Source: an uncultured cyanobacterium (GTDB taxonomy: Bacteria > Cyanobacteriota > Cyanobacteriia > Cyanobacteriales > Nostocaceae). From it: a stretch of 64,000 bases of DNA. Position numbers and translations under genes: made by a program. The stretch's first letter is position 1; every line of letters begins with the position of its first letter. Under the pieces are notes generated by a model. It searched no databases and was not told where the DNA came from. It saw nothing but the letters and a program-made list of their open reading frames with translations. The stretch is taken from contig CAINGU010000040.1 of assembly GCA_903848645.1 (NCBI GenBank), forward strand, positions 124,001 to 188,000. Direction: 5' to 3'. Below, in pieces: positions 2,517 through 21,412 of the stretch.

Positions 2517-3503
2517 ATGAATTTACCTTTAGAAGTTATTTTGAGTTTAGTTCTAGAAATTTTGATAGGTTTATGGCTAATTTGGCAAGCTATAAAAATA
2601 AACTCTAATATTGATATATTCAAAATAGGAGTTAACTGGTTTAGGGATAGACCTATCATTTTACCTTCTTTATTTTTTTTAATGTTTCCATTTTTGTCTA
2701 CATATATTTTTCATAATTTACCAGCAGATTTAAATAAGATTTTTGACAACAGAATAATTGGACAATTATTAACAACTTTTGGGACAGTTATAAGCATCTA
2801 TATTGGAAACATAGCTTTAGAAAGCTTCAGGAAAACTCAGGGAGGAAAGAAGGTAGCAAAAGTAATCGTTGCGAGCATGGAAGGTCATTTAGTATATCTA
2901 TCGGAAATTATTAGATGCCTTGAAGAGTATTTATTTGAAGAAACAAATAAAAAATTCTTGCCAGGAAATCAAGAACAAGGGCTTAACTATCAAGAATTAT
3001 GTCTTAAAAATATTGATGGCAGACTTGAGCAAATTAAAAATGATTATATATATGAATCAGCACTCAAAGAAATTGGAATTCTCAAAAGCGAATATATCAA
3101 TATAATTTACGATTACTCTAGGTTTTTAAACTCTATTTTATATGAAATTTCAAAAATACAGGATATAAAAAAGCTAGGTTTTATGTGTAATTTGCAAGAA
3201 CAAATTTGCGAATTTGATATTAACACAAAATTAGATATGATGATTATCACCAAAGAAATTCTTCAGGATTATGAATATTTCAACAATCACAAAGAATGCG
3301 TGAAATATTACTATACTCAAAAAGTGTGTATTGATATCCATAAAGGTACACAAATTACACCAAAGAAAGATAACATGGAAGAAAAAATCTTAATAAGAAC
3401 TCACAGATTATTTAAAGATTTTGGCTTATTCAATGAGCTTGATGATGCTTATGATAAAAATCAAATTGAATTTGAAGCGAAACGAAAAATGGAAGATTTA
3501 TAA
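2517..3503 (+). CDS. Orphan membrane protein, 328 aa
   Basis: Not recognised. Three hydrophobic segments occupy about residues 4-25 (LEVILSLVLEILIGLWLIW), 47-65 (IILPSLFFLMFPFLSTYIF) and 84-102 (LLTTFGTVISIYIGNIAL). They are followed by about 220 cytoplasmic residues that are helical and rich in Lys, Glu, Tyr and Ile, with several cysteines. Base composition is noticeably more AT-rich than adjacent housekeeping genes. It sits between a TA pair and a kinase with no cotranscribed partner. The layout (membrane helices plus a charged effector-like domain) is seen in some defence effectors, but nothing here proves that. Confidence 0.6.
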   Translation: MNLPLEVILSLVLEILIGLWLIWQAIKINSNIDIFKIGVNWFRDRPIILPSLFFLMFPFLSTYIFHNLPADLNKIFDNRIIGQLLTTFGTVISIYIGNIALESFRKTQGGKKVAKVIVASMEGHLVYLSEIIRCLEEYLFEETNKKFLPGNQEQGLNYQELCLKNIDGRLEQIKNDYIYESALKEIGILKSEYINIIYDYSRFLNSILYEISKIQDIKKLGFMCNLQEQICEFDINTKLDMMIITKEILQDYEYFNNHKECVKYYYTQKVCIDIHKGTQITPKKDNMEEKILIRTHRLFKDFGLFNELDDAYDKNQIEFEAKRKMEDL

Positions 3504-3548
3504 CTAAGAAATGGATAATTTATCATTCTCTATACTCTTATGTAAGCG

Positions 3549-4985
3549 TTATCTTTGACACCTTGTAAGTCTCAACACTAGAGAAGAAATATTATTTAGT
3601 TTACCATACCTTACTAAATTCCCCCACCCTAACCCCCAGCCACGCAATCCAGGAATAAACATAACTGATGGGAGGTGTCCTTCTGGTGCTGTTATATTAA
3701 AAGCAATATCAAAGTCATACACCCGGTGTTTTCCGCCTTTTATCCAACCTACTGCATTTCCAAATGCTTGCAAACTTTTTGCATCTGACTCATTTGTATT
3801 TACTAGACTTTGATAAATGCGTTTTTGGACGGAAAAACCAAACCTTCCCTTGCTGTATCTTACCCACAAATCATCAATTATGCGGAGGTCTTCGCAGGGG
3901 AAATTGTCAATATTCTCTACACGTAACCAACCCTCCGTTTCTCTGTCTGTTGCTTTCAGCATAACCTTACCTGTTTCTATGTCTGCTGCTTTCCACTTCC
4001 CTGATGCTAAAAGTTTATCTAATTCTCGATAGTCAACACCTATTGATGAAATCAATTTAACAGAAAGAATAGAAGAAACTTGTCTTTTTGTGTTTGTTCC
4101 AACTTCCTGCTTTTCCAATTCTAATAAAACCTCATTTGCAAACTGAAACCGATTAATTGGTAAATCCTGCAACATCTTATCTAAAACTAATTCCAACTCC
4201 TGACTTACAGAAACATATTGTTTCCATACCCACTGCATTCTCATAGCATCAAACAGCGGGTCAGAACCATCTCCTTTTTGAAAATATCCCGTTAATAAAC
4301 GAATACAAGTTACAGCTAAACTATAAAGATCACTATTAGGAAAAACCATCCCGCGAAATTGTTCTGGTGGTGCATATCCCGGTGTACCTGTAATTGTCCC
4401 CACTCTACTCAAAACACTTCCACCAACTTCCTTAGAAACTCCAAAATCAATTAGGAATAAAGCACCAGTTTGAGAACTTCTAATAATATTTTCTGGTTTA
4501 ATATCTCTGTGAATGACTTTTTTATCATGGACAAATTGTAAAATAGGTAATAATTCAACTAATATCTGTTTAACTTCCGATTCGCTGAATTTTCCTTTTT
4601 GTTGTAATTCATCTAAGAGATTTTTACCTTCGATAAATTCCTGAATTAAATATAATCTTCCTTCTTGTTGAAAGAAAGCCAGTAAATCTGGAATATGTGA
4701 ATGTTTCCCTAAATCTCGCAGTCGAAAAGCTTCTTGTTTAAATAACTCCGTCGCTTTTTCTAAAGCCGCACTTCCCGACTGTTGGGGTAAAAATTGCTTA
4801 ATTACACAGGGAGTATCTAATCTTTGTTCGTCTACTGCTAAAAACGTTCTCCCAAATCCACCTTCTCCAATAACCCGCACACCACGATACCGCTCTTGTA
4901 ATACCAGTTTACTCCCACAACGTTGACAAAATATCGTCTTCGGTGGATTTTGCTGTAGACATTCGGGGTTAAGACACTGACTCAT
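3549..4985 (-). CDS. Ser/Thr protein kinase with zinc ribbon and GUN4 domain
   Basis: A 478-aa three-part protein. Residues 4-23 form a zinc ribbon (C-x4-C-x10-C-x2-C). Residues about 33-290 are a Hanks-type kinase: glycine loop GEGGFGRTF (40-48), catalytic lysine in CVIKQF (K63), HRDIKPENII, DFGVSKEV and the PGYAPPEQ segment, all intact. Residues about 320-470 are a GUN4 domain (LDKLLASGKWKAADIETGKV, FPCEDLRIIDDLWVRYSKGR, FGFSVQKRIY). GUN4 binds porphyrins and stimulates Mg-chelatase in chlorophyll synthesis, so this kinase may sense tetrapyrroles; that is inference. It is a single gene with its own 5' region. Kinase-GUN4 fusions are known in cyanobacteria. Confidence 0.9.
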   Translation of the reverse strand: MSQCLNPECLQQNPPKTIFCQRCGSKLVLQERYRGVRVIGEGGFGRTFLAVDEQRLDTPCVIKQFLPQQSGSAALEKATELFKQEAFRLRDLGKHSHIPDLLAFFQQEGRLYLIQEFIEGKNLLDELQQKGKFSESEVKQILVELLPILQFVHDKKVIHRDIKPENIIRSSQTGALFLIDFGVSKEVGGSVLSRVGTITGTPGYAPPEQFRGMVFPNSDLYSLAVTCIRLLTGYFQKGDGSDPLFDAMRMQWVWKQYVSVSQELELVLDKMLQDLPINRFQFANEVLLELEKQEVGTNTKRQVSSILSVKLISSIGVDYRELDKLLASGKWKAADIETGKVMLKATDRETEGWLRVENIDNFPCEDLRIIDDLWVRYSKGRFGFSVQKRIYQSLVNTNESDAKSLQAFGNAVGWIKGGKHRVYDFDIAFNITAPEGHLPSVMFIPGLRGWGLGWGNLVRYGKLNNISSLVLRLTRCQR

Positions 4986-5043
4986 AGATACTCATTGGGG
5001 CTAATCATTTCAGTATAATTATACGTTAAGGTGTAGGTAAAAA

Positions 5044-5256
5044 TTATCTGAGTTGATTAAATTCTTCCTCTGTAATATTCAACTGGTTGAGAATTTCATG
5101 AAATAACCAACCACCAATTTCTGAATTTCGATGAATAGGAATAGTGGTTGCACGTCCGTCTAAATGTTGCCAACGTGCATGACTACCCTTTTGACGGACT
5201 TTTTTAAAACCGAGTTTTCTGGCAACTCTTTCTAATTCACTTGCTTTAGCTGGCAT
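5044..5256 (-). CDS. hicA: HicA-family toxin (mRNA interferase)
   Basis: A 70-aa protein with the dsRBD-like HicA fold signature: KLGFKKVRQKGSHARWQH, where the GSH histidine is the catalytic residue in the family, then TTIPIHRNSEIGGWLFHEIL. HicA cleaves mRNA in a translation-independent way until blocked by HicB. The gene overlaps the upstream hicB by 11 bp. The sequence appears intact, including the histidine. Confidence 0.85.
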   Translation of the reverse strand: MPAKASELERVARKLGFKKVRQKGSHARWQHLDGRATTIPIHRNSEIGGWLFHEILNQLNITEEEFNQLR

Positions 5257-5467
5257 TTGCTATTACTAATTCAATATCATCTGGCATAACTAAACCGTTT
5301 TCTGTATATTCTTCTTGAATCATTTCAAATACATAATTCAGTTCAAGACGTGCTTCATCTGGTGTTTTTCCCCAAGCGTGACAACCAGAAATTGCTGGGA
5401 TATAAGCAACATAAGTACCATTGTCATCAGGACGAATAACTGTGGTGTAGTCTTGTAAAGACTTCAT
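5246..5467 (-). CDS. hicB: HicB-family antitoxin
   Basis: A 73-aa protein with the degraded-RNase-H-like HicB core: DDNGTYVAYIPAISGCHAWG followed by TPDEARLELNYVFEMIQEEY. It lies upstream of hicA and overlaps it, so the antitoxin is translated first. There is no C-terminal DNA-binding domain as in long HicB proteins, so autoregulation would need another mechanism. Together with hicA this is a complete small TA locus divergent from cobA. Confidence 0.85.
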   Translation of the reverse strand: MKSLQDYTTVIRPDDNGTYVAYIPAISGCHAWGKTPDEARLELNYVFEMIQEEYTENGLVMPDDIELVIANAS

Positions 5468-5536
5468 AAGGATTATATCATGTTTGAGTAACTTTATTAT
5501 AATATAAAAACCTTTATTTAGGAGTAACTACTAAAC

Positions 5537-6256
5537 ATGATTATAAAAATTGGTAAAGTTTATCTTGTTGGTGCAGGTCCTGGAGATGTGGAATATTTAA
5601 CAGTTAAAGCCTATCGGCTTTTGGGAACTGCTCAAGTATTAGTTTATGATGCTTTAGTTGATAGTCAATTATTAGATTGTGTCCCCGCTAATTGTCTAAA
5701 AATAGATGTTGGTAAACGGGGTGGTAAACCCAGCACTTCCCAAACTGAAATTAACGATTTACTAGTAAAACATTGTTTAGAAGGACAACAAGTAATTAGA
5801 CTAAAATCAGGAGATCCATTTATATTTGGTCGCTGTCTTTTAGAAATTGAAGCATTAAAAAAAGCAGGTTGTGAATTTGAAATAATTCCCGGAATTTCTT
5901 CCGCATTAGCCGCACCGCTATTAGCCGGAATTCCCCTCACAGATAACGTTATTAGTCGTTGTTTTGCCGTCTGTACAGCCCATGAACCAGAAACCTTAAA
6001 CTGGGAAGCATTAGCAAGCCTAGAAACCTTAGTAATTTTGATGGGAGGAAAAAATTTATCAGAAATAATCCATCAACTGATAAAATATAGAAAATCCTAT
6101 TCTACACCCATTGCTATCATCCGTTGGGCTGGAACACCAAACCAACAAATCTGGACAGGAGAACTGGGAAATATCCTCGAACAAACCGCTGATTTATCTC
6201 TTTCTCCCGCAGTTATAGTCATTGGTGAAGTTGTCCGATTACGCGATTACCTATAA
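5537..6256 (+). CDS. cobA: Uroporphyrinogen-III C-methyltransferase (SUMT)
   Basis: A 239-aa SAM-dependent enzyme that methylates uroporphyrinogen III at C2 and C7 to precorrin-2, the branch point to sirohaem and cobalamin. Family motifs in order: VYLVGAGPGDVEYLTVKAYR (residues 8-27), VYDALVDSQLLDCVP, RLKSGDPFIFGR (the GDPF loop), EIIPGISSALAAPLLAGIPL and LMGGKNLSEI. This is the stand-alone form, without the CysG dehydrogenase/ferrochelatase part. hemD follows 71 bp later in the same direction, a common cyanobacterial pairing that puts synthesis and first methylation of uroporphyrinogen III together. Confidence 0.93.
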   Translation: MIIKIGKVYLVGAGPGDVEYLTVKAYRLLGTAQVLVYDALVDSQLLDCVPANCLKIDVGKRGGKPSTSQTEINDLLVKHCLEGQQVIRLKSGDPFIFGRCLLEIEALKKAGCEFEIIPGISSALAAPLLAGIPLTDNVISRCFAVCTAHEPETLNWEALASLETLVILMGGKNLSEIIHQLIKYRKSYSTPIAIIRWAGTPNQQIWTGELGNILEQTADLSLSPAVIVIGEVVRLRDYL

Positions 6257-6327
6257 TCTGAAAAAATCTCTTCTTTGCGTCTTTGCGACTTTGCGTGAAA
6301 CCCAAAATTATTAATATTACAAATTCA

Positions 6328-7134
6328 ATGTCAACCGTGAATCAAAATCTTTCCCCCCTTGCTGGTAAAACCATCTTAGTTACCCGTTCCGTAGGACAAT
6401 CAAATCAATTTAGCGATCGCTTAACCTCCGCAGGTGCTAAAGTAATAGAAATGCCAACTTTGGAAATTGGACACCCTAGCAGTTGGGAAGCTTTAGATCA
6501 GGCAATTTTGGATTTATCAACTTTCAATTGGCTAATTCTCACATCTAGTAATGGTGTAGAATACTTTTTTAGTAGATTAGAAAAATCTGGTCAAGATAAA
6601 ACTGCTTTAGCTGAGGTAAAAATTGCCGTTGTCGGTGAAAAAACTGCCCAAAGTTTGCAAAAGCAAAATATTCAAGCTGATTTTATTCCTCCTAACTTTG
6701 TGGCTGATTCTTTAGTTGAAAATTTTCCCGAATCCCTAACAGGTAAAAAGATATTATTTCCCAGAGTAGAAAGTGGTGGAAGGGAAGTATTAGTTAAAGA
6801 ATTAACCGCCAAAGGTGCAGAAGTAATTGAAGTTCCTGCTTATGAATCTTGCTGTCCTCAAAGTATCCCGGCTGCGGCTGAATATGCCCTGGTTAATAAT
6901 ACCATAGATGTCATTACTTTTGCTAGTTCTAAAACAGTCTTATTTTTCTCACAGTTAACAGCACATATTTTTACTTACAACCCGGAAAATTTAGCCAGAG
7001 TTTGTATAGCTTCCATTGGTCCCCAAACTTCAAAAACTTGTCATTCTGTATTTGGAAGAGTAGATATTGAAGCGGAAGAATATACTTTAGAAGGTTTAAC
7101 AAATGCAATTATTAAATGGGTAAATCAGCAATAA
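6328..7134 (+). CDS. hemD: Uroporphyrinogen-III synthase
   Basis: Cyclises hydroxymethylbilane to uroporphyrinogen III with inversion of ring D. The 268-aa protein shows the two-lobed HemD pattern: LAGKTILVTRSVGQSNQFSD at the N-terminus, FNWLILTSSNGVEYFFSRL, VGEKTAQSLQKQNIQADFIP, and the second half with KILFPRVESGGREVLVKEL, VITFASSKTVLFF and ASIGPQTSKTCHS. I choose ATG 6328 rather than the in-frame TTG at 6283: the TTG lies in the dispersed repeat ctttgcgtctttgcgacttt and would add 15 residues not expected in HemD. coaE follows 3 bp after the stop. Confidence 0.9.
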   Translation: MSTVNQNLSPLAGKTILVTRSVGQSNQFSDRLTSAGAKVIEMPTLEIGHPSSWEALDQAILDLSTFNWLILTSSNGVEYFFSRLEKSGQDKTALAEVKIAVVGEKTAQSLQKQNIQADFIPPNFVADSLVENFPESLTGKKILFPRVESGGREVLVKELTAKGAEVIEVPAYESCCPQSIPAAAEYALVNNTIDVITFASSKTVLFFSQLTAHIFTYNPENLARVCIASIGPQTSKTCHSVFGRVDIEAEEYTLEGLTNAIIKWVNQQ

Positions 7135-7137
7135 CTA

Positions 7138-7728
7138 ATGAATAAAAACTTAATTGGTTTAACTGGTGGTATTGCGACGGGTAAAAGTACGGTTGCTAAT
7201 TATTTAGCTACAGCTTACAATTTACCGATTTTAGATGCAGATATTTATGCGAGAGATGCTGTATCTATAGGTTCTCCTATTTTGTCACAAATTGCTGAAA
7301 AATATGGTAAAGATATTATATTAAATGATGGTAATTTAAATAGAGCAAAATTAGGAGAAATTATCTTTAATCATCTAGAAGAACGTCATTGGGTAGAAAA
7401 TATAATTCATCCTTATGTGAGAAATTGTTTTGATAAAGCCATTAACGAATCATTTGCAAATACTTTAATTTTAGTAATTCCCCTATTATTTGAAGCCAAC
7501 CTAGAAAACCTAGTCAATGAAATTTGGGTTGTATCTTGTTCAGAACAACAGCAACAACAACGATTAATAGAAAGAAATCATTTAACACTAGAACAAGCAG
7601 CAGCAAGAATAAATAGCCAATTACCCATTACTGAAAAAATCGCTCGTGCTGACGTAAATTTAGATAATTCCTCAACGTTAGAATTACTATTACAACAAAT
7701 AGATATAGTGGTGAAAAATCTTTCCTAG
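7138..7728 (+). CDS. coaE: Dephospho-CoA kinase
   Basis: Last step of coenzyme A synthesis: phosphorylates the 3'-hydroxyl of dephospho-CoA. The 196-aa protein has the P-loop GLTGGIATGKSTVANYL at residues 7-23, the LDADIYARDAV segment that binds substrate, HPYVRNCF, and VIPLLFEANLENLVNEIWVV. Length is normal. It lies 3 bp downstream of hemD, so cobA-hemD-coaE probably form one unit. Sequence is intact. Confidence 0.93.
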   Translation: MNKNLIGLTGGIATGKSTVANYLATAYNLPILDADIYARDAVSIGSPILSQIAEKYGKDIILNDGNLNRAKLGEIIFNHLEERHWVENIIHPYVRNCFDKAINESFANTLILVIPLLFEANLENLVNEIWVVSCSEQQQQQRLIERNHLTLEQAAARINSQLPITEKIARADVNLDNSSTLELLLQQIDIVVKNLS

Positions 7729-7861
7729 ACACCCTTTTTCTTCAATACTCAACTCTGCGGAGAAGTTGGGTAATTTTATTCTTTTTACATCTTGACTTGT
7801 CAAGCCTCATAAGTTTATTATTTATAGTAAGTAATTTTAGAAACAACTATTAAGGGTGCAA

Positions 7862-10800
7862 ATGAACAAAATAATAATAAATCCAGACTTAGCCAATGTT
7901 GATTATACTGATTTATTAGCAAAAATTTTATTGGTATTGCAAAAACCAAATCAGGAAATATTTAAACTTTATGATGATAATAAACGTTTACAAATCAATA
8001 TTGATCAGGTGGTAACTGAAGTTGCTAATATGCAGGTAGAAAATCCCTTGGGAGCATCTGCAAACAGTGTCCGTTCTGCTACTGTAAATATTAGTCCAGG
8101 TTCGGAAGCAAAGTTTCGGACTCAAATTCACGAAATTAAAGATTGTGTTGAGAAATTATTACAATCATTCTTAGGAGATAGCAAATCAATAGAAGAATTT
8201 GTTAGTAACCTAATTACAGATTTACAGAAATTCCAAGGAACAAAAGCTAACTTAGACTTTACCTATCCTTTTCCTAATTATGATAATCTGCAAAAGCAAC
8301 GTTTAACCTTTAATAAAAAAAATCCTGAAAACAGAGAATTACTAAAAGTCCACAAGCTAACTATTTCTGTTCAGAAAACTCGTGATTTTGATGCAGAATT
8401 GCGAAAGGGTTTAGAACATTATATTCGTGTTAAATTTGCGAGTGCAAATGCTGAAGAAAAACAAGATTTAGAATACATTCTTGAAGATTTAGAAAAAGAT
8501 CAAAATTCTGACCTTTTTCGGTTGCGGGATGTTGTCAATAAAGAAACATTAGGAAAACTCAAAAAACAAGCACAGATAAATTATTTAGAGTTCCTGCTAG
8601 AAAATATTAACACCAATAGTAGAAATCTCAATTCCACAGGTGCTATCCCAGGTGGTATATACTTAGAAGATTTAATTAGAAGACTAAGACTTATAGAAGA
8701 ATATATCAACGATAGCAATAAAGCTGATGGTGATTATCTCGTCAATTATGCAGGTGCTGAAGTTAATTACAAAGATGCTTTTTCTCGTGGTGAAGCATTT
8801 GATAAGCTGCCAATTATTCCCATAGTAGAAGGTTTTTTGGGAGAAACAAAAGATGAAAATCGCGGAGAAATTCAATTTGTATTTGGACTCAAATTGAAGT
8901 TTGATGGTAAAGTTCATACTGACGGTGGTAAAAGCGTTTTTGATTATCGTCTCAATATCCTGAATCCAGATAGTCAAGAACATAAAGATGCACTTGCAGA
9001 TCCTTTACAGCGAGAATCATTTGCAAAAGAGGTATTAAGAATAGCATTTTTGTACTATTTTGTATTTGCATCTCGTCAAGATCCAGAAAAAAAAAACTAC
9101 AACCCCAATGATGAATTAAAATATGATCCTATTGCGGGATTTGAACAAGGAGTAATATCAATCCTAAAAGGTTCTGATGATATAGCAAAACAGGACTTAT
9201 TGCGGAAAATTCTTAAAGGTTTTACTAAATTTAATATTCAGGTTAAAATCAATTTTCTCAAAGATATACTGCAAGATATTCTCAAACGGAAAACTTCCTT
9301 TCCTACAAGAGAGTATCCTGTACATATTTCTGTGAAAAACGGGATTCTTGAAGAAGATACCCGAAATATTTTCAATAACAATACATTTTTCAAACCTGTT
9401 GTCAGAAGAAATCCTAAAGAAGTTCTCAAATACATATCTTTAGGAAAACCAAATACAGAAACAAATTCCCTTTGTACCCTACCAGCTAAAGTTACTATCA
9501 ACGACATTCACTTTTTTGCTACAGATGATCAAGAAACCTTTAGCATGGAATATGATTTAACTGCTATCCGCTATCCGCGCATTACCAGTAATTTTTGCAC
9601 CTTTAGATGATCCGAGATGTTTAAGTATTTGCAGTCAACACTTCAAAACTCGACAACTTTTATTATTTCCCTATCGTTTAGAAAATAAAAAACTAGAACC
9701 TCCTCAAGCTTTTGTTTATAAATTTACTTACGGTTTGCTTGCTTATATTTGTCTTGAACTTTTACTGGAAAAGCAGACAAGATTATTTATTCCCATTCTC
9801 AGATTACATCTGCACGGTAAAGATGATGATGCACCGATAGAAAAATTTATAGTTTCTTTATCTGCTGTTTTATCTCATTTATTCAATGAAACCCATCGTG
9901 CTAATAAGAAAGGATTTGATATTAGAAAGTTGGGATTTAAAATTCCTAATACTATGAGTTCGTTGTACTCTGTTTTACCCAAAAAATTCACTTTTCATAG
10001 TTCTTCAAAATCTCCCAAATTAGACAAACTAGCCATTATTATTGTCTCCAGTCGTGAAAGTGATCGTGGTTGGAATGGTTCTGCAAAAATCTACAATTTA
10101 ATGGGAGAAATTATAGGTGTAAACACGAAAAATGGGGTAGTCAAATTTCAGTTACCGACAACTTTTTCTGACAACTATAACCAGCAAGAAATGTATACAA
10201 ATCCTAGCGTAATTATTGATAAAGTTACTGAACTTTACCAACTGGGATACAAGCACATTGTCTATATTGCGAAAGCACCTTTTACTAGCACATTACATCT
10301 AACACAAACAGAAGATGATGATGGACTTTTCTTTATGTCAAGAGACGTAATTAGAGGTTTAAAATCTGAATATCATGATATCAAAATCTATCCCATGTTT
10401 TTTGATAAATACTATGCGGTTAGACTGGAAGATATTGCAGCTAGTTCTTTGTATATTCAAGACACAGTAGAACTAACAAATTTACTCGAAGATCCTAGCA
10501 AAAAATCTGTTGTATTTTTCAACTTATTTAATGGAATGAAAGTAGGTAAAGAGGAAGAAAGATATTATAGAGGTGTCATTTCTTATGCGACGCTGTTAAA
10601 TATTTATCAAGGAATCCTTGACGATGAAGATATTCACAAAGGACTTATTTTTGATGGTTCATTAAAAGACGATATCTTGCAATATTTGACTTTATTTCAC
10701 TTCTCCCGCTACCAAAAAGCCGACAAACAAATTCACGTCAAACTAGATCCTTACGACAATTTAATCGGAGATAAATCCGTGGGTAAACTTTCTTTACTTA

Positions 10801-10877
10801 ATCATTTTAAAGGAAAAGGTGAATTTAACTCTTTAGCATTTTTAACTCTTGTGAGAAAAGTGTTAAATGCAAAGTAA
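7862..10877 (+). pseudogene. Large orphan gene (about 1002 aa) split by a 7-bp duplication
   Basis: Two long frames (to 9610, and 9735-10877) are one gene. A tandem copy of ctatccg at 9564-9570/9571-9577 shifts the frame; removing one copy joins ...EYDLTAIR to ALPVIFAPLDDPRC... and leaves 3009 nt, exactly 1003 codons, open through to TAA 10877. ATG 7862 follows AAGGG at a 5-nt gap and is preferred to GTG 7856. The rebuilt protein is not recognised. Residues about 1-350 are helical and charged; about 570-690 are mixed; about 720-1002 alternate strands and helices (KLAIIIVSSRESDRGWNG, YNLMGEIIGV, GYKHIVYIAKAPF, DIKIYPMFFDKYYAVRL), as in Rossmann or RNase H/Piwi-like folds. No catalytic motif can be assigned. 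The downstream gene at 10914 is probably cotranscribed. Confidence 0.8.
9564..9577. repeat. Frame-breaking 7-bp tandem duplication
   Basis: Two adjacent copies of ctatccg inside the orphan gene. One copy keeps the frame open across the whole gene; two copies lead to TGA at 9608-9610. This is the expected product of slipped-strand replication. Confidence 0.85.
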
Positions 10878-10913
10878 AGCAAAGGTTAACACAAAAATCA
10901 TCTGAAAATTAAC

Positions 10914-12509
10914 ATGAAATCTAAAATAGCTGAAGATTTAGGACGTTTATTTGAAGTAGGTTTTAATATTGGAGTTATTGCTTATATTCAAGAACAGAAA
11001 ATTAAGCACAAATTTGGTGACTTATATCGTCAAGAATTACAGCAGCTAAAATTATCTAACATCCAACAGCGATTTGTGGCTAAAGTTATCAGCACTGTAG
11101 AAAGAGAAATGGCTAAAAAGTGGAGTATATTTTTTATTCAAAAGGGGTTTTTAAGTGGTTTTAATTTCTTCCGAGAATACATCAAATCTACAGGTTGGGA
11201 TAAACCACACAAATTACCAAATGTGGAAATATTATATTATCAATGTCGGTTTAATGGTGATAATAGTATTGGTACTTATGACACCAAGGATGATTCTCAG
11301 TGGTTTAGGGAAGTATTATCTCAATTTGACAACTTAGATAATATCCCTCAATATATTACAAAGTATAAGAAAAAAGGCGAGTTTCTGAATGCAGATACTT
11401 TAATTTTATTACGTCATAGGAAAGAGGATCGAGTTATTTGTGTTGATTTATCGGTGTTTTCTATCAACTCCAATGAAGATGTTGAAGATATTGATTATAT
11501 AGCAATTATCCGCAGGTTATTAATGCGGGATATTAGCTATTTACGTTCAAAAAGTGTCTTTTCTAGTCTGAGAATTGATACTGAATCTTTAGGGTTAGAA
11601 TTTTCAGAAGGTTTAAAGACATACTTTACTGCTTTTAAATATAGGGATAAAGAAAGTACCAAATCAATTCAAGCTGCTTGTTATCTCCATAGCTTCTATG
11701 AATTTCTGCAAAAAACTACTATTCTTCCAGATACAGCAAATCTAGTTTTCAATTCTATAGGATATAGCGATCGCGGAATTAGTACAATATCCATTCAACG
11801 GGAAAATGTAGATATCTTAAAAACTTGTTATCAGGATTTCGTAATTCAAAGTACAACTGAATCTAATTATTTAGCACTACAAAAGTCTTTTAACAGCAAG
11901 TTTTCAGAAATTTCTCATACTCTCGATAAGTTATTAGATTTTGGTAAACTTGAACCTGGTTATATTAGTGGTGGTTTGCTGGTAGTACCTATTGCTAATA
12001 ATAAGTTAGAAGAAACTTATCAAATGCGACTAGCTGATATAACAACCTATGCTAATGAAGAATTGTGGAAAAATATGCACGAAATTACCCGTCGCAAATC
12101 TTATTATCCAGAAAATTTACGATTTGCTATTCAAGATGCGATAGAATTAGTAAAAAATTTAAAAGATGATGTGAAGAAAACACAAAGACTGGAACAAAGT
12201 AGTCAACACAATGATCAATATTACGCTTTACCATTATTTGCATTTATTAGTGGGGAAGTTATGAAAGAATATTTTGAAAATGAACCACAAGAACCGGAAG
12301 ATCAACTTTTTCGGGATATTTTATCTACCTATATTCGCTCATTATATCCCGTTGGTAATGTTTTACCAATTGGTCATAATTACAAAGAATTTCCCTTTGT
12401 GGTATTTAGAAGTTATAGCTTAGAAGAAATCAGAAACAAAATATTTACAGAAAAGTACCTATTAAATTCTCATGAATTAAATGTGCTAAATTTGATTCTT
12501 TCTTCCTAA
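10914..12509 (+). CDS. Unrecognised 531-aa partner protein of the orphan module
   Basis: Not recognised. It starts 36 bp after the split gene, on the same strand, and looks intact. Residues 1-95 are helical (AEDLGRLFEVGFNIGVIAYI, KKWSIFFIQKGFLSGFNFFR). Around 160-182, NADTLILLRHRKEDRVICVD followed by LSVF has the strand-turn-strand spacing of a PD-(D/E)xK nuclease core (D161, D178), but the usual lysine position is serine (S180), so activity is doubtful. Around 350-365 a glycine-rich strand (GYISGGLLVVPIAN) precedes a long helical segment (LADITTYANEELWKNMHEIT). No signal peptide or membrane helix is seen. The pairing with the about 1002-aa gene suggests one functional unit, possibly nucleic-acid related; that is inference. 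Confidence 0.75.
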   Translation: MKSKIAEDLGRLFEVGFNIGVIAYIQEQKIKHKFGDLYRQELQQLKLSNIQQRFVAKVISTVEREMAKKWSIFFIQKGFLSGFNFFREYIKSTGWDKPHKLPNVEILYYQCRFNGDNSIGTYDTKDDSQWFREVLSQFDNLDNIPQYITKYKKKGEFLNADTLILLRHRKEDRVICVDLSVFSINSNEDVEDIDYIAIIRRLLMRDISYLRSKSVFSSLRIDTESLGLEFSEGLKTYFTAFKYRDKESTKSIQAACYLHSFYEFLQKTTILPDTANLVFNSIGYSDRGISTISIQRENVDILKTCYQDFVIQSTTESNYLALQKSFNSKFSEISHTLDKLLDFGKLEPGYISGGLLVVPIANNKLEETYQMRLADITTYANEELWKNMHEITRRKSYYPENLRFAIQDAIELVKNLKDDVKKTQRLEQSSQHNDQYYALPLFAFISGEVMKEYFENEPQEPEDQLFRDILSTYIRSLYPVGNVLPIGHNYKEFPFVVFRSYSLEEIRNKIFTEKYLLNSHELNVLNLILSS

Positions 12510-12537
12510 ACATCTCCCATAAATCCCCAAAAATCAA

Positions 12538-12566
12538 ATACCCGACTCCTTGGAAAAGTCGAGTAT
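12538..12566. terminator. Hairpin terminator after the orphan module
   Basis: Inverted repeat of the ataccCGACT...AGTCGagtat type, 29 nt downstream of the stop at 12509. The same hairpin family occurs at 25604 and 48865, each 3' of genes. Confidence 0.6.
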
Positions 12567-12570
12567 CTAA

Positions 12571-12789
12571 GAGGGTGTTTGAAAAGTCTAAATTCATACT
12601 CTCTGGGCGATTAGAAATCGCGGCTACACAGACAAAACCCACCTATTCCTTCGGTTCGGTAAGGGATATGTGGGTTCAGAAGCTTTGATTTTTCATTAGT
12701 CCACGAAGGTGGACTTCGCTTGTGTAGTAGCGAATTATATTCGCCGATAGCGTAGCGTGGCGTTAGCCATAAACTTTTCAAACATCCTC
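12571..12789. mobile_element. 219-bp MITE with terminal inverted repeats
   Basis: The left end gagggtgtttgaaaagt (12571-12587) is matched by acttttcaaacatcctc (12773-12789), a 17-bp inverted repeat with one mismatch. TAA flanks both sides (12568-12570 and 12790-12792), fitting a 3-bp target duplication as made by IS5-type transposases with TNA targets. There is no transposase. The interior has several hairpins, such as gtccacgaaggtggac and gcgaattatattcgc. It must be mobilised in trans, if at all. Confidence 0.82.
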
Positions 12790-12879
12790 TAAAATGAATG
12801 ATAATTTTTCGCGTTTTATGGGTTGAGGCTATTGACTTGCACCAAAAAATCTGTTAGACTAGATCTTGATAAGGAAGAA

Positions 12880-14280
12880 CTATTCTGCACTTTCTCCCCC
12901 AACCACAACATCTCGAATTCGTAAACTGGGACCTCCGCAACCAACAGGTAAACCATTTTGTCCACCTTTACCACAACCCCCGGATTCATCCCAGTAAAAA
13001 TCATCACCAATGGCTTCGATATCTGCGAGGGTTTGGAAGACGTTACCAGAAAGAGTAACATCTTTCACAGGTTCAGCAATTTTGCCATTTCTAATCATCC
13101 AAGCTTCCCCAGCACTGAAAGTGAACATTTCCCCGTTCGTCATTCCCCCTAACCAATTTTGAGCAAAAACACCTTCTTTAATCCCTGTAAATAAATCTGC
13201 GACGGGAGTTTTACCCCGTTCAATCCAGGTATTTGTCATTCTCACAATGGGGGAATAGTGATAATTAAGACAACGAGCATTACCTGTGGGTTTTTCTTCT
13301 AATTTACCAGCAGTTTCACGGGAATGGAGTCTACCAACTAATACACCATCTTCAATTAATTGGGTAGTCGTCGCAGGTGTACCTTCATCGTCGTAAAAAT
13401 AACTGCCGCGATGTCCTTGGGGTGCAGCACCATCAAATATTTGCAGTTCTTCGGGTCCAAAACGTCTTCCCAAAGTCATAACTTCGAGAATATCGGGGTT
13501 TTCATAAGCCATATCTGCTTCGGAAAGATGTCCAAAGGCTTCATGTACAAATAAACCGCTGAGAATGGGATCAATAACTACGGTGTAAGTATTACCTTTG
13601 ACAGGCGGTAAAGATAAAGACGTAACTGCTCTTTTTGCTGCACCTTTAACTTGCTTGTCTAAATTAGTTAAGTCTTCGTAAGCCTTGCGAGAACCTGTGG
13701 TTTCTCTGCCAGTTTGCACTGTGTCCCCATTCCTTGCTGTAGCAGCAAAGCGCATTTCCATATCTACCCAAGATTGGTCAATAAAAGTTCCTTCTGAGGT
13801 GACAATAATCACTCTTTGGGTACTGTCACTATAATGAACGGAGGTGGTAGTAATGCGGTGATCAACTGTTTTTAAAAGGTCAGTATAGTGATCGCATAAT
13901 TGCTTTTTCTGCTTTAGCGAAACCTGACGGGGATCAGTACCCAGTAAAGGTAATTTACATACGGCTTGTACGGGATCAATCGCTGCAAGTATAGTCTCTT
14001 CATCACCCACTATCCGGGCTGCGGCAATGGCTTCTTCTATGCGTTCTTCAATGGTTGCTAATTTATTAAAACTACTTAAACCCCAGCCACCTTTATAACA
14101 AGTGCGAACATGGCCACCAATGGAAATCCCTTCGCTGAGAGTTTCCACTTTATCACCACGCAAAACAATATCTGTTCCCTCGGCTTCTTCCAAGCGAATC
14201 ATCAAATAATCCACACGAGAAGAGTAACGGGAAATTAAATCTGAGAGGATATTTTGAACATCAGTAAGTTTAGTTGTCAT
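12880..14280 (-). CDS. tldD: TldD-family metalloprotease
   Basis: A 466-aa zinc peptidase subunit of the TldD/PmbA family, which with PmbA degrades unfolded or small peptides and matures some ribosomal peptides. The zinc motif HEAFGH is present in LFVHEAFGHLSEADMAYENP at about residue 245. Other family blocks are SEGISIGGHVRTCYKGGWGL, DDEGTPATTTQLIEDGVLVG, GNARCLNYHYSPIVRMTNTW and LSGNVFQTLADIEAIGDDFY. Length is typical. It follows a photolyase-like gene on the same strand by 32 bp. No PmbA partner lies in the window. Confidence 0.92.
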   Translation of the reverse strand: MTTKLTDVQNILSDLISRYSSRVDYLMIRLEEAEGTDIVLRGDKVETLSEGISIGGHVRTCYKGGWGLSSFNKLATIEERIEEAIAAARIVGDEETILAAIDPVQAVCKLPLLGTDPRQVSLKQKKQLCDHYTDLLKTVDHRITTTSVHYSDSTQRVIIVTSEGTFIDQSWVDMEMRFAATARNGDTVQTGRETTGSRKAYEDLTNLDKQVKGAAKRAVTSLSLPPVKGNTYTVVIDPILSGLFVHEAFGHLSEADMAYENPDILEVMTLGRRFGPEELQIFDGAAPQGHRGSYFYDDEGTPATTTQLIEDGVLVGRLHSRETAGKLEEKPTGNARCLNYHYSPIVRMTNTWIERGKTPVADLFTGIKEGVFAQNWLGGMTNGEMFTFSAGEAWMIRNGKIAEPVKDVTLSGNVFQTLADIEAIGDDFYWDESGGCGKGGQNGLPVGCGGPSLRIRDVVVGGESAE

Positions 14281-14312
14281 TTTATGAATCGCGATAAATT
14301 ACATTTATTTTC

Positions 14313-14729
14313 TTATTGAAAAACATATTTTTGGGCTACTTTCCAATAACGGGAAAACCGCTTTAAATCAATATATCCGTCATATTCAAAAAACGGTTCT
14401 CCAGCCAAGACTTCTAATTTTACAGACTTTTCAATTTGATGACGAATATCATCAAATCGCGGACTGGGACTATCTGTAGTTACAACTAAATTAGTATTAT
14501 GTTCTTTTGCAAAAGCTAAAATTTCTTGTGCTACATTTCCCCGGCGAATTTCTACAGGTAATTCTAGCAAACATTCATAAATGAAAGTCAGGCGTTTTAG
14601 GCCAATTTGCCATTCTCCTATTAAAGCATCATCCCAAACCCAAAGGGCTGGGGCTTGGGGATATGCTTGAAGTGCAGGGTTTTGGGGACTCAGACAGTCT
14701 CCATTGATCCAAATAACTGGTGTATTCAT
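14313..14729 (-). CDS. Stand-alone photolyase-like N-terminal domain protein
   Basis: A 138-aa protein resembling only the alpha/beta antenna-binding N-terminal domain of DNA photolyase/cryptochrome: ALWVWDDALIGEWQIGLKRL, FIYECLLELPVEIRRGNVAQ, EILAFAKEHNTNLVVTTDSP. The FAD-binding helical domain is absent and the frame ends cleanly, so this is either a separate small family or an old truncation. Position upstream of tldD (32 bp) suggests one transcript. It cannot be a working photolyase alone. Confidence 0.6.
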   Translation of the reverse strand: MNTPVIWINGDCLSPQNPALQAYPQAPALWVWDDALIGEWQIGLKRLTFIYECLLELPVEIRRGNVAQEILAFAKEHNTNLVVTTDSPSPRFDDIRHQIEKSVKLEVLAGEPFFEYDGYIDLKRFSRYWKVAQKYVFQ

Positions 14730-15270
14730 TATCTGCGCTTATCTATATCAATAGAAAAACAAATATATAACCATCTTAAATCATAACGGCGATGGTTGAT
14801 ATTCAAAAAAGCTCAAATCTTTTAAATCCTGATTTGACAAGCATTCTGACTCCTAACTCCTAACTGATAAATTCCCTTGCCAATAAATTTTTAATAATTT
14901 TTGCAAAATCGTAACTATGGATACATCCAATTCTGGCAACCGTGGATAACATGATAAAAATATTCACATAGTAAAAAACATCAAGAACCAAAAAACCATT
15001 GTTCTTGTTCATCTTTCCATCTTTATAAACAGCAGCCTACAGGAGTTTACCTTCCTAAATAATTTACCTGACAAAAATAATCCCTACTGCCTTAAATATA
15101 AGGACAAAACAACTTTATCACAATCCAGTATGACATCACAAAAACCTGTCATACCCATTCGGGATTTTAGATTGGGAATGAATTACACTTTTGCAGCAAT
15201 TTCCCACACCACTAAATATCCGCAGTTAGCGTCCTTGTGATATTTCAGCTAAACAATCAAGGAGTTTATT
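14730..15270. other. Non-coding gap, 541 bp
   Basis: Holds promoters for the leftward tldD unit and the rightward small gene at 15271. No supported gene. There is an imperfect inverted repeat aagaac...gttctt near 14984-15008, a gactcctaactcctaactga heptamer-type repeat near 14850, and the ribosome site aaggag at about 15259-15264. Confidence 0.5.
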
Positions 15271-15534
15271 ATGCTTCGACAAATGTGCTGGTTATCTAAG
15301 TCTAGCGGCGATGATGAAAAGATTTTGTACTTGCAAACTGCACCTGGACAACCTTGGCGGCCTTACACAGCTTTTCCACAGTTTTCAGTTCCAGATTATC
15401 GCGTTCCTCGTGGTTCTAAGGGTTGGGCAACTTATCAAAAACTCTTTAAAGCAGGTTGGACTTTAGTACCTAGCGCCAGAGGTAGCGAATTTGGTGATAG
15501 TTGCTATGCAGAGTCAACTGTGCAGAGTTCATAG
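15271..15534 (+). CDS. Small conserved-looking protein, 87 aa
   Basis: Not recognised by function. The ATG has a strong ribosome site (aaggag, 6-nt spacing). The protein is soluble, rich in Trp, Tyr, Pro and Ser (APGQPWRPYTAFPQFSVPDY, then KGWATYQKLFKAGWTLVPSA), with two cysteines. The long untranslated leader and good start suggest a real, individually regulated gene. A dispersed repeat begins just 4 bp after the stop. Confidence 0.6.
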   Translation: MLRQMCWLSKSSGDDEKILYLQTAPGQPWRPYTAFPQFSVPDYRVPRGSKGWATYQKLFKAGWTLVPSARGSEFGDSCYAESTVQSS

Positions 15535-15538
15535 CCTA

Positions 15539-15643
15539 TACAGCAGATTTCGGAGAAATGAGGTACAAGCTTGAATAATGAAACTCTTGTGGTGCGGGCA
15601 TCTTGCCCGCTATGTGTACCTTATAACAGCAAAAATCGCTGTA
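15539..15643. repeat. Hairpin repeat family, copy 1 (about 105 bp)
   Basis: Ends tacagcagattt / aaaaatcgctgta form an inverted repeat; inner arms atgaggtaca / tgtaccttat and a core hairpin gcgggcatcttgcccgc also pair, so the whole unit can fold into one long stem. Other copies: 32086-32192, 35653-35707 (partial) and 59971-60077. Confidence 0.85.
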
Positions 15644-15777
15644 TTACCATCTGGGGAACACCATCAATATTATCTCATCCCCAGATGGGTGAAATTATTT
15701 GCGTATCTGAGCAAGTAAACCCCAAACACCTTACAATAGATAGGGTGCGTTAACTGCTGTTACAAACATTTATATTT

Positions 15778-16035
15778 ATGCCTCCCCGTTGGCCTCGCAA
15801 ACCAGATCGCAAAGATCCAGATTTCCGTAAACTAGATGATCGCATGAATTTCGCTGTTCATGTCGGTATTTGTGCAACTGTCACTTCTGGGTTGTGGTTT
15901 TTCCACATTTTGAAAACTACTTCCTGGGAATGGCTACCTGGGTTAACACTTGGTTGGGTAGGAGTATTGCTACTGCATCTAATTTACATTGGTGCGATCG
16001 CTAATTACGACCCCACACCACCAAAATCCACCTAA
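15778..16035 (+). CDS. Small two-helix membrane protein
   Basis: An 85-aa protein with a basic, proline-rich N-terminus (MPPRWPRKPDRKDPDFRKLD) and two membrane helices, about residues 28-46 (VHVGICATVTSGLWFFHIL) and 53-75 (WLPGLTLGWVGVLLLHLIYI). It is of the small 2TM type common in cyanobacterial genomes; function unknown. The 5' region contains the copy 1 repeat. Frame is clean and includes a GCGATCGC site. Confidence 0.65.
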   Translation: MPPRWPRKPDRKDPDFRKLDDRMNFAVHVGICATVTSGLWFFHILKTTSWEWLPGLTLGWVGVLLLHLIYIGAIANYDPTPPKST

Positions 16036-16153
16036 AGAAAGAAAAACAAGCTAGGGAATTCTCCCATGTGGTAGTAGATCAAGTCTAGCTAATTGAGTAA
16101 TAATATGAAATAGGCTAAGATATTTCAATATTGCTAACAATGAGGTTATATTT

Positions 16154-16462
16154 ATGGCTAATACTAATACCACAGAAATACTAGAAACCCTAGCTGCCGA
16201 AATTGGTGAAAGTGTTTATATAGATATTGCCAAATGGCATCTTTATCTATCAGATGCCAAACTGCATCATGTTGTGGCTGAAAAATTGTATCCTTTAATT
16301 ACTTCTAAAAGCGTTAATGAAGATAAGGTAATTGCCGCTTTAGAATCTATCACTGTCAAAGTTGGTGGTGGTAGAAAGGAACTATCTTTAATTGATTTAT
16401 TACCCTTGCAATGTCAAGTTACTTTAGTAGATATTGTTGAAAAATATCAACGGGAAATCTAA
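16154..16462 (+). CDS. DUF3181-like cyanobacterial protein
   Basis: A 102-aa soluble helical protein matching the cyanobacterial DUF3181 pattern: TTEILETLAAEIGESVYIDI, AKWHLYLSDAKLHHVVAEKL, then VKVGGGRKELSLIDLLPLQC. Function is not known. It is followed 57 bp later by another small cyanobacterial gene on the same strand, perhaps in one transcript. Confidence 0.7.
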   Translation: MANTNTTEILETLAAEIGESVYIDIAKWHLYLSDAKLHHVVAEKLYPLITSKSVNEDKVIAALESITVKVGGGRKELSLIDLLPLQCQVTLVDIVEKYQREI

Positions 16463-16519
16463 TCTTCATTTTCTTCCCATTGGCAAATTTACATATTTAA
16501 ATAATGGAGGTTGATCAAG

Positions 16520-16744
16520 ATGTTTTTACAAATCAAACATAGCCACGATTTGGTGAAAATAGTCGATGTTCAAGAACTATTAGACCCCACCAGTGAAACT
16601 GTCCACGCCCAAGACCAAGAAGGACAAGAAGAACAGGAAACGGACATTTATAAAAAGGAAGAACTAGTATTTCCTTCTGGGGAAAACCTACCGCGCTGTT
16701 GGTTAGATGCCAAATTCAGAGAAAGAGAAGCTGTAGCAGCTTAA
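16520..16744 (+). CDS. Small acidic protein, 74 aa
   Basis: Function unknown. I choose ATG 16520, 9 nt after the ribosome site GGAGG (16506-16510), over the in-frame TTG at 16511, which abuts that site. The protein begins MFLQIKHSHDLVKIVDVQEL, has an acidic Gln/Glu-rich middle (HAQDQEGQEEQETDIYKKEE) and a short C-terminal motif FPSGENLPRCWLDAKFRERE. The same general pattern occurs in small cyanobacterial proteins, but I know no role. Confidence 0.6.
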   Translation: MFLQIKHSHDLVKIVDVQELLDPTSETVHAQDQEGQEEQETDIYKKEELVFPSGENLPRCWLDAKFREREAVAA

Positions 16745-16763
16745 TTTTAATTACAGTCAGTCA

Positions 16764-16792
16764 GTAGGGGTTTAGCAATGCTAAACCCCTAC
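16764..16792. terminator. Bidirectional hairpin between convergent genes
   Basis: A 14-bp perfect inverted repeat (gtaggggtttagca / tgctaaacccctac) with a single central base, placed between two convergent stop codons. It can terminate both transcripts; the same sequence type is a dispersed repeat in cyanobacteria. Confidence 0.7.
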
Positions 16793-16798
16793 ATTAAT

Positions 16799-17263
16799 TT
16801 AATTCACAGCAGTTTTTTCTGCTGCTGTCACACCTTCAGCACCTTTAGAAAAAGCTTTAGTAATCCAATAGGTGAAAATATGAGAAAGCACACCTAACGG
16901 ACCGGCAAATAGACACAAAGCTAGAGAATGAATTGTCCAAATTCCGGTTTTTTGTCCTTCCCAATAAATCCATCTACCGACAAATAAATCCATTACTAAA
17001 AAATGAATCCAACCTGTAGCAGCGGCTGTTTCATCACTAAAAAACCTGGCTATATCTGCTAATTGAGGATTTGATAAAGCCGCAGCGTTTTCTGGAGTAA
17101 TGCTGGTGACAAATAAGTACAAATATGCACCCGCTAAAACCACAAAAGGCAGATAAGATTCCATTACCTTGCGAGTTACTTTCCAGTTAGGTAAAAGAAT
17201 CATCAAAGCCCAAAAAGGCAAAACAAAAACATTGGCAACATTAAATAAATCTGTGATATTCAT
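16799..17263 (-). CDS. ABA4-like membrane protein
   Basis: A 154-aa integral membrane protein like plant ABA4 (needed for neoxanthin formation) and its cyanobacterial homologues of unproven function. Seen: LFNVANVFVLPFWALMILLP, YLPFVVLAGAYLYLFV, then GWIHFLVMDLFVGRWIYWEG, the conserved His/Asp/Arg block of the family, and CLFAGPLGVLSHIFTYWITK. Four membrane helices fit. The start lies 1 bp beyond the stop of the upstream CobW gene, so the two are translationally close and form an operon. Confidence 0.8.
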   Translation of the reverse strand: MNITDLFNVANVFVLPFWALMILLPNWKVTRKVMESYLPFVVLAGAYLYLFVTSITPENAAALSNPQLADIARFFSDETAAATGWIHFLVMDLFVGRWIYWEGQKTGIWTIHSLALCLFAGPLGVLSHIFTYWITKAFSKGAEGVTAAEKTAVN

Positions 17264-17264
17264 A

Positions 17265-18314: not shown

Positions 18315-18476
18315 GTTTTGTGTGTGGTTTTGAATTCAATTTTACCATATATTGTATAACCCCTCTCCAAACCTCTCCCCGCAACGGGGAAAGGCTTAAA
18401 TACAAATACAGTTCTGTGAAGAGTTGATTTTGGCTTAAATACTTAATTTAATATAACTAATTATTTAGTTTAAAAG

Positions 18477-18499
18477 CCCCTCTCCGTGTCGGAGAGGGG
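18477..18499. repeat. REP-like hairpin
   Basis: cccctctccg tgt cggagagggg, a perfect 10-bp stem with a 3-nt loop, followed by ttggggtgagg. A related sequence lies at about 18361-18397. This type is repeated many times in cyanobacterial genomes. Confidence 0.65.
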
Positions 18500-18520
18500 T
18501 TGGGGTGAGGTCAGATTATT

Positions 18521-18787
18521 TTAAGAATATCCAATTTCTATCATTTTGAAAAATTGCTGAACTACTTCATTTCGAGTTTCATAACATCTTTCAGCATCAA
18601 ATCTTTCTTGTTTTTCAACTCTGCGTTCTGCGGTGTGAAATGGTTCATCAACTTCCAAAATTCCTCATTTGTTATAATGGCAAATGAGGAAATCAGCTTC
18701 TTTATTTTCTCTCCCCTTGGGTGTGGTAAGTCGTGCTAAAAAGTTGGATACAAATAAAACTCCAGTTCGGTCTATTGCCCATATTAC
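18521..18787 (-). pseudogene. Decayed endonuclease-like gene
   Basis: Read on the minus strand, an open stretch gives AIDRTGVLFVSNFLARLTTP, KGRENKEADFLICHYNK, a TGA stop, then GILEVDEPFHTAERRVEKQE, RFDAERCYETRNEVVQQFF and a normal TAA at 18521. The EADFLI...GILEVD...FH arrangement resembles a PD-(D/E)xK-type restriction-like protein of cyanobacteria. The stop falls where the family-like text would read KWGILEVD, so one TGG-to-TGA change explains it. The N-terminus is lost into a gggtaatgggtaat repeat, and the segment between the two conserved blocks looks shortened. Confidence 0.6.
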
Positions 18788-18804
18788 CCATTACCCATCA
18801 CCAA

Positions 18805-20103: not shown

Positions 20104-20301
20104 CGTAGTAGGTGGTAGTATTTTTAGAATTAATCTGGGTAAAAAAGGATAGAGAATTGTGGAGACTATAGGATATATCAATTGTGGTAATTGGTAATCG
20201 GTAATTGGTAATTGGGAAAGAAGTAATAAAACTCTTCCCTAACAACTGACAACTGACAACTGACATTAGTATTTTTCTTTAGTAATCTAGCGGGTAAAAC
20301 T

Positions 20302-21411: not shown

Positions 21412-21412
21412 A

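Follow-up and report, generated by a model that had tools for sequence, protein, structure and literature searches.

A decayed copy of a conserved gene pair in a cyanobacterium, possibly an Argonaute-like/helicase system directed against plasmids or invading DNA

We analyzed a window of 64,000 nucleotides from an uncultured cyanobacterium of the Nostocaceae (GCA_903848645.1, contig CAINGU010000040.1, positions 124,001 to 188,000 of the forward strand). At window positions 7862 to 12509 lie two genes, here called A and B, which are adjacent and co-directional between coaE and a tldD-like gene (neighbor names by eye). A sequence-only reading of the window had proposed an undescribed two-gene module at this place, and the arrangement of the two genes was borne out by the open reading frames (ORFs) of the window. 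The locus contains the following features.

7862..9607, plus strand: 5' piece of gene A, an ORF for the N-terminal ~570 residues, continuing out of frame past the lesion
9564..9577, plus strand: tandem duplication of a 7-bp word, seen in the sequence and the frames, which shifts the gene A frame
9578..10877, plus strand: 3' piece of gene A, encoding the C-terminal part, which is MID-like and RNase H/PIWI-like by a low-confidence assignment of the fold
10914..11834, plus strand: N-terminal part of the gene B remnant, with a RecB/PD-(D/E)XK-like pattern
11835..11839, plus strand: in-frame deletion junction, at which the helicase core was removed (~673 codons relative to the intact relative L022)
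11838..12509, plus strand: C-terminal part of the gene B remnant, of unknown fold

Gene A as a whole extends from 7862 to 10877 and is frameshifted. Its 5' ORF spans 7856-9610, a second frame continues to 10877, and a profile of A relatives matched the 5' piece at model positions 1-573. In close intact relatives (L022-L024), A is one open frame of 996-1008 amino acids (aa), in agreement with the earlier proposal that the first gene has to be rebuilt across the 7-bp repeat. We conclude that gene A is broken in the window genome by the tandem 7-bp duplication.

Gene B forms an uninterrupted frame (10914-12509) of 531 aa, a value that the sequence-only reading took as the length of the second gene. 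This length did not hold, since its closest intact relatives are 1203-1204 aa long (1204 aa in the reference L022). When window B was aligned with eight relatives, ~673 residues were missing in frame (L022 residues 309-981), and the missing stretch carries the Walker A and DE boxes together with motifs V and VI of a superfamily 2 (SF2) helicase. The 7-bp sequence CAGATTT is present at both ends of this stretch in L022, L048 and L049, suggesting that gene B was shortened through slippage or a short-homology deletion. B-like places were detected in 10 of 194 genomes of the class (nine besides the window genome), with intact frames of 1203-1309 aa. Furthermore, one contig scan yielded eight B loci with 56-91% identity to window B, the closer of which matched window residues 1-320 and ~307-531 with a long stretch in between. 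Judged from these alignments, the 531-aa window B is a deletion remnant and not a natural protein. That the second gene is a remnant and that its intact counterpart is a helicase both go beyond the earlier reading, and the case illustrates that a raw reading can mistake what a deletion left behind for a gene in its natural form.

The ratio of nonsynonymous to synonymous substitution rates (dN/dS) was 0.06-0.25 when the remaining A and B parts of the window were compared with relatives, and 0.09-0.24 between intact relatives, except for one 29-codon comparison at 0.49. Since the window values are like those of the intact relatives, either the loss was recent or the parts are still constrained. 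The window copy probably decayed recently, and the window pair is unlikely to function as a system. Phase variation via the 7-bp repeat was also considered and was rejected as the principal explanation, because B is shortened too. A further explanation is that the 531-aa B is no remnant but a functional, helicase-free derivative. In line with this, the deletion is in frame, the nuclease-like residues are kept, and dN/dS of both remaining B parts looks normal; in addition, at a second locus (G398:C100:4796-8095) the first ~600 residues of A are joined in frame to the last ~500 of B in a 1118-aa frame, a fusion that seems to have arisen by deletion and to be the second in-frame deletion in the family. 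However, recent decay would likewise give normal dN/dS, the partner A in the window pair is frameshifted, and the same shortened form was present at no other locus among the B matches of a search of 291 cyanobacterial genomes. We therefore regard a functional derivative as very improbable and continue with the interpretation of window B as a remnant.

The same 291 genomes served as the phylum sample for the pair, with A counted at E < 1e-10. Stop to stop, intact A comprises ~1000-1200 aa and intact B ~1200-1340 aa. The sequence-only reading had staked its proposal on conserved pairing in other genomes, and such pairing was found: B was present in 41/41 genomes with A, and A in 41 of the 42 genomes with B. 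The exception, G267, contains just a 126-residue B piece, located inside its contig. Weak matches at E 1e-5 to 1e-3, two to B and ten to A, were left out of the counts as chance. The B hits (G100 and G160; E 6e-4 and 8e-4) were confined to the Walker A stretch, and the A hits belonged to one phylum family, four of the ten being 5'-nucleotidase/metallophosphoesterase-like when read by eye. An A match with stops in G301 (E 1.8e-6) was also not counted, as a doubtful remnant.

Both genes were on one contig in 43 loci, and in every one of these A was the upstream gene, with B on the same strand; the genomes G293 and G313 have the two genes on different contigs. The gap between them was below 250 bp in most loci and larger in G285, G345 (contig C4), G366, G335 and G143, the last a decayed locus. 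Across 41 loci, the pairwise identities of A, computed for its C-terminal 500 aa, were strongly correlated with those of B (r = 0.987; reached by 0 of 1,000 permutations), although shared descent by itself would raise r too. The window genome holds two subtypes of the pair, with A and B matched by type. Its second pair is intact, belongs to the other subtype and lies near an rseP-like gene (by eye) on contig C98 (L030, G000:C98:77000-94699, positions 7427-14535); its B shows 23% identity to part of window B. Together, A and B constitute a conserved two-gene module. As a separate observation, the interval between A and B at one locus (L164, G335:C1:3483000-3496000, positions 3173-8843) contains a gene for a large protein with an NPPY stretch of methyltransferase type, a small endonuclease-like ORF and a PIN-like ORF (by eye), perhaps a defense-type insertion inside the pair.

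That the genes match no known family, as claimed earlier, was correct for the window genes, which had no match at the curated cut-off in Pfam, NCBIfam or PADLOC (best Pfam E 0.083 and 0.025, both falling far short of it), but not for intact B, which matched Pfam Helicase_C above the cut-off (E 1e-9). With NCBIfam, intact B gave weak P-loop matches only. In a comparison of whole B with the PDB, P-loop or other stretches of known helicases were matched (best E 2e-4). The helicase residues G414, K420, D616, E617, Q855 and R859 were present in 43/43 alignment rows.

The N-terminal part of B has a second conserved pattern, consisting of G155, D161, D/E178 and S/T180 (each in 43/43 rows) and K246, K250, Q253 and Y257 (each in 44/44). 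The RecB-type series is D, (D/E)xK, QxxxY. The nuclease-like strip noted in the sequence-only reading corresponds to these RecB-like residues, and window B keeps D161, D178, S180, K246, K250, Q253 and Y257. The best PDB sequence match of this N-terminal region was a non-nuclease (E 0.048). We conclude that the front end of B resembles a RecB-like PD-(D/E)XK domain, and that the predicted nuclease activity is uncertain because serine stands for lysine; the replacement of the nuclease lysine by S/T180 weighs against a helicase-nuclease assignment. By its conserved residues, B is an SF2 helicase with a putative RecB-like nuclease domain at its N terminus.

Protein A was less accessible to sequence searches. 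Neither window A nor its relatives had a match at the cut-off in Pfam, NCBIfam or PADLOC (best Pfam E 0.042), and in PHROGs two functionally uncharacterized families were weakly matched (E 0.011 and 0.04). An AlphaFold2 model computed from 7 sequences contained strands at residues 719-728, 740-752 and 755-768, then helices, a strand at 794-800, a helix and a strand at 837-841, and this modeled succession of strands and helices is that of RNase H. When the model was compared with the PDB by Foldseek, the best match was a foamy virus RNase H (E 0.009). Seventeen of the top 20 matches were RNase H, reverse-transcriptase RNase H, RuvC or Argonaute-type chains, and nine of these 17 were Argonautes or short-Argonaute complexes. 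As a Foldseek control, the AlphaFold2 model of the 531-aa remnant (predicted local distance difference test [pLDDT], 37) gave a best E of 0.84 and mostly receptor helices.

At the position of the catalytic aspartate in strand 1, the A relatives have V/Y at 724 (41/41), S at 725 (34/41), S/T at 726 (40/41) and R at 727 (36/41). Since this position reads V/Y-S-[ST]-R in most rows, A itself is probably not a nuclease. The model suggests that the C-terminal half of A most likely adopts a fold of the MID/RNase H (Argonaute-like) kind that lacks the canonical catalytic aspartate. A thus differs from the prokaryotic Argonautes (PF02171), in that the strand-1 aspartate is not conserved, and its modeled likeness to them lies in the Foldseek matches at the level of the fold.

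Several results weigh against this assignment. The mean pLDDT of the A model was 43.5 (28-71 over residues 711-840), and no Foldseek match reached E 0.001, the matching residues not being indicated. In a profile-profile comparison of C-terminal A with 14 cyanobacterial prokaryotic Argonautes, the probability was 0.1; 51 of 100 column shuffles matched the score, and reversing the alignment gave a higher score than the real one. By sequence, the top PDB match of A was a designed protein (E 0.009; 0.039 in another search), and there was no Argonaute among the PDB sequence matches of A. Likewise, A had no sequence match to PIWI (PF02171). Direct homology of A to Argonautes is accordingly unsupported by profile comparison, the score being within that of the shuffles. 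Some motifs of the Argonaute MID/PIWI region could be aligned with A by hand (SQ/QG, DIS-R versus VSSR, and LLH...P) with a striking likeness, but they are kept as a lead only, because the profile score was within the shuffles and the best alignment was in another register. The RNase H/Piwi-like C-terminal third proposed by the sequence-only reading therefore stands at the fold level, in a low-confidence model, and found no support in the profile-profile comparison.

A combination of a PIWI-type protein with an SF2 helicase and a nuclease of restriction endonuclease (REase) fold is also known from the pPIWI-RE modules, which consist of an REase, a DinG-like helicase and PIWI-RE, and A-B could be a diverged module of this kind. 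The logic and the protein sizes are similar (PMC3702460). Moreover, a sample of 244 genomes of the phylum contained PF13032 at eight loci, each with a large ORF of 775-1212 aa beside the PIWI-RE gene; this neighbor was taken as the helicase in accordance with PMC3702460, and the shortest one (775 aa) is near a contig end. However, A had no PF13032 match, and the hhalign comparison of A (A7) with pPIWI-RE gave a probability of 0.1, a value that also speaks against an Argonaute-like A. The hhalign probability of B against the helicases of pPIWI-RE loci was 13.6, in the Walker A stretch only. B has no near-invariant cysteine and hence no DinG-type iron-sulfur (Fe-S) site. Furthermore, A-B has two genes instead of three, whereas PMC3702460 describes a separate REase gene, a DinG-type Fe-S helicase and the PIWI gene in the last position. 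At the sequence level, membership was largely refuted by the missing PF13032 match and the hhalign values, and a diverged pPIWI-RE module is a most improbable explanation of the pair.

A closer likeness was found to the ApsAB system, which is described in PMC11096173 as an anti-plasmid pair of Escherichia coli ST38, made up of a helicase-nuclease (a large SF2 helicase with a domain of PD-(D/E)XK type) and an Argonaute-like protein. ApsAB was active on plasmids but not on the eight phages tested, and its family was linked to DdmDE (PMC11096173). As described there, ApsB contains the MID-like motif Y[X]3K[X]nQG[X]nK, while DdmE is without a MID-like motif and structurally unlike ApsB. A-B resembles ApsAB in having two genes and in an island setting with complete or partly deleted copies (PMC11096173). 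A central SF2 helicase in a protein of >1100 aa is present in intact B and lost in the window copy. DdmDE, a plasmid defense system of Vibrio cholerae, is similar to the proposed A-B system in joining a helicase-nuclease to an Argonaute-like partner, as described in PMC11096173.

It is conceivable that A-B belongs directly to the anti-plasmid families already published as ApsAB and DdmDE and is, as such, described in kind. The partnership of helicase-nuclease and Argonaute-like protein would be common to all of them, and PMC11096173 reports ApsAB-like systems in cyanobacteria and gamma- and betaproteobacteria. A QG is found at the place of the MID-like QG of ApsB in 38 of the 40 A rows that cover the region. 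By the numbering of PMC11096173, the QG of ApsB stands ~312 residues before the C terminus; A has a similar distance of ~320-345 residues in most of its cyanobacterial rows and a longer one in L041, L043, L044 and L045. The Y-x3-K before QG was present in just 3 of 42 A rows (two rows are without the region), which weighs against the Argonaute-like reading of A, and a K downstream of QG is partly conserved. As a detail of the alignment, window A and L048 (G242) have K for the otherwise conserved Q of this QG.

According to PMC11096173, the nuclease motif of ApsA is C-terminal (D1420...DVK1435), that of B is N-terminal with S for K, and no D...(D/E)xK was detected among the conserved residues of the B C terminus. 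The helicase motifs are DELH, SAT and QAVGRVER in ApsA (PMC11096173) versus DEIT, DAS and QVIYRGRG in the window-type rows of B. ApsB was sought downstream of ApsA and ends at about residue 743 (PMC11096173), whereas A is upstream of B and has 1000-1200 aa. A-B was set apart from ApsAB by the gene order, domain order and motifs given in the published description. PADLOC gave no useful match for B, and for A and B together nothing beyond a weak Csf4/DinG match (E 0.07); its library presumably includes DdmDE. Direct membership in the published families is thus unlikely, and we prefer to treat A-B as a related but distinct pair.

The distribution of the pair was patchy. It was missing from 249 of the 291 cyanobacterial genomes and present in 7 of 9 sampled genomes of the genus of the window. 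Six cyanobacterial plasmid records contained both genes, all of them typed as conjugative in PLSDB, and a seventh record (Stanieria) contained a B fragment only. Distant pairs in the same order were present on plasmids of Acinetobacter (L041 and L043), Cupriavidus (L042) and Acetobacter (L044). A profile made from cyanobacterial A proteins only matched the plasmid proteins at E 4e-31 (L041), 5e-40 (L043), 8e-35 (L044) and 3e-133 (L042), and the cyanobacteria-only B profile matched the same proteobacterial plasmids at E 5e-141 or better. No relatives were detected in viral contigs with A1 and A2 as queries, or in phage records with one A and one B protein as queries.

Decay was not limited to the window. 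Clearly broken loci numbered six: the window locus, G143 with its numerous stops, the contig-internal remnants of G116 and G267, G345 C13, where B is shortened to 242 aa, and the fusion locus G398. Single stops were present in G366, G259 and G351. In Acetobacter persici (L044), two overlapping ORFs, one of 998 and one of 329 aa, take the place of a single B gene (7837-11819), which is possibly another broken copy. On plasmid C of Trichormus variabilis ATCC 29413 (L046), where the pair is intact, the region past it (13137-21660) holds a DEAD/DEAH helicase and two large uncharacterized ORFs, of ~828 and ~1853 aa, perhaps another defense operon.

The genomic context bears on the possibility that A-B is a housekeeping pair for the repair or processing of DNA or RNA, with no role in defense. 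In cyanobacteria, the examined chromosomal copies are mostly among housekeeping genes, many of them adjoining purQ, rseP, nth or tldD (by eye), and this speaks against a defense setting. The dN/dS of ~0.06-0.25 given above for the window against relatives indicates purifying selection. Furthermore, ORFs of at least 150 aa within 10 kb of the pairs were searched for defense families with PADLOC (122 proteins from 10 of 13 fetched genomes), with 118 proteins from 19 of 26 fetched stretches as controls. At E 1e-15, 49 PADLOC families were matched near the pairs and 19 in the controls. Among the matches listed, which cover 25 of the 49 families, 22 were PD-T4-6 models, with three or four proteins each; we take these models to be kinases. 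Because only 25 of the 49 families were listed and 22 of them were PD-T4-6, we conclude that this crude test revealed no convincing defense enrichment in the 10 cyanobacterial genomes, so that the defense-island enrichment for which the sequence-only reading had proposed a test was not found in them. In proteobacteria, the neighbors are of defense or toxin-antitoxin (TA) type: HipA, Fic and HigB are near the pair in Acinetobacter sp. PK01 (L041), where the protein after B matches the PADLOC candidate PDC-S37 at E 0, and HNH, methyltransferase and WYL genes are neighbors in L043. These neighbors, the carriage by conjugative plasmids, the repeated decay and the absence from most sampled cyanobacterial genomes argue against a housekeeping function, which we rate as improbable.

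A role of A-B in conflict is plausible by analogy, because the pair is carried by plasmids, occurs patchily, decays frequently and resembles ApsAB and DdmDE. On balance, we lean toward reading the window as a decayed copy of a conserved Argonaute-like/helicase pair that possibly fights plasmids or other invading DNA. Beyond the observed pairing, fixed order, parallel divergence, patchy spread, plasmid carriage, conserved residues and window lesions, we infer for A-B an Argonaute fold, guide use, nuclease activity and a function in defense. In the proposed mechanism, A would bind a guide, or a target nucleic acid, on the DNA of an invader (probably a plasmid) and would then recruit B. B would translocate, unwind and lead to loss of the invading DNA, as proposed for ApsAB and DdmDE.

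More tentatively, with the balance tipping slightly the other way, A-B may represent a third, undescribed branch of Argonaute-like/helicase immunity beside ApsAB and DdmDE. This branch would be characterized by a catalytically dead MID/PIWI-like A upstream, an SF2 helicase with an N-terminal RecB-like domain devoid of the lysine, occurrence in cyanobacteria and proteobacteria, and carriage by conjugative plasmids, perhaps in plasmid-plasmid competition. In the literature on Argonautes, helicases and related systems we recognized no description of the A-B pair, which is not proof of absence. Of the earlier idea of an undescribed, possibly conflict-related system, the conservation and the lack of a recognized description were supported, while the window copy proved to be decayed and the conflict role is plausible only. 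If the proposal is true, a family for which the searched libraries have no curated model, present in cyanobacteria and also on the plasmids of proteobacteria unrelated to one another, falls within the newly recognized Argonaute-like/helicase class, and this class exists with gene order and nuclease position swapped. It would become testable why the pairs travel on conjugative plasmids and what makes their decay so frequent. On the practical side, anti-plasmid systems may restrict the genetic manipulation of cyanobacteria.

The surroundings of the window pair were also compared with the earlier description. The TA systems said to flank it were recovered in part: HicA/HicB-like ORFs lie at 5044-5467 (by eye), but three housekeeping-type genes are in between, and no other TA search was made. 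The miniature inverted-repeat transposable element (MITE) reported nearby corresponds to a 231-bp element at 12565-12795 with 26-nt inverted ends that are 85% complementary. The element is repeated in the genome as a family, for which 61 matching stretches were counted, some of them overlapping, and it is consistent with a MITE.

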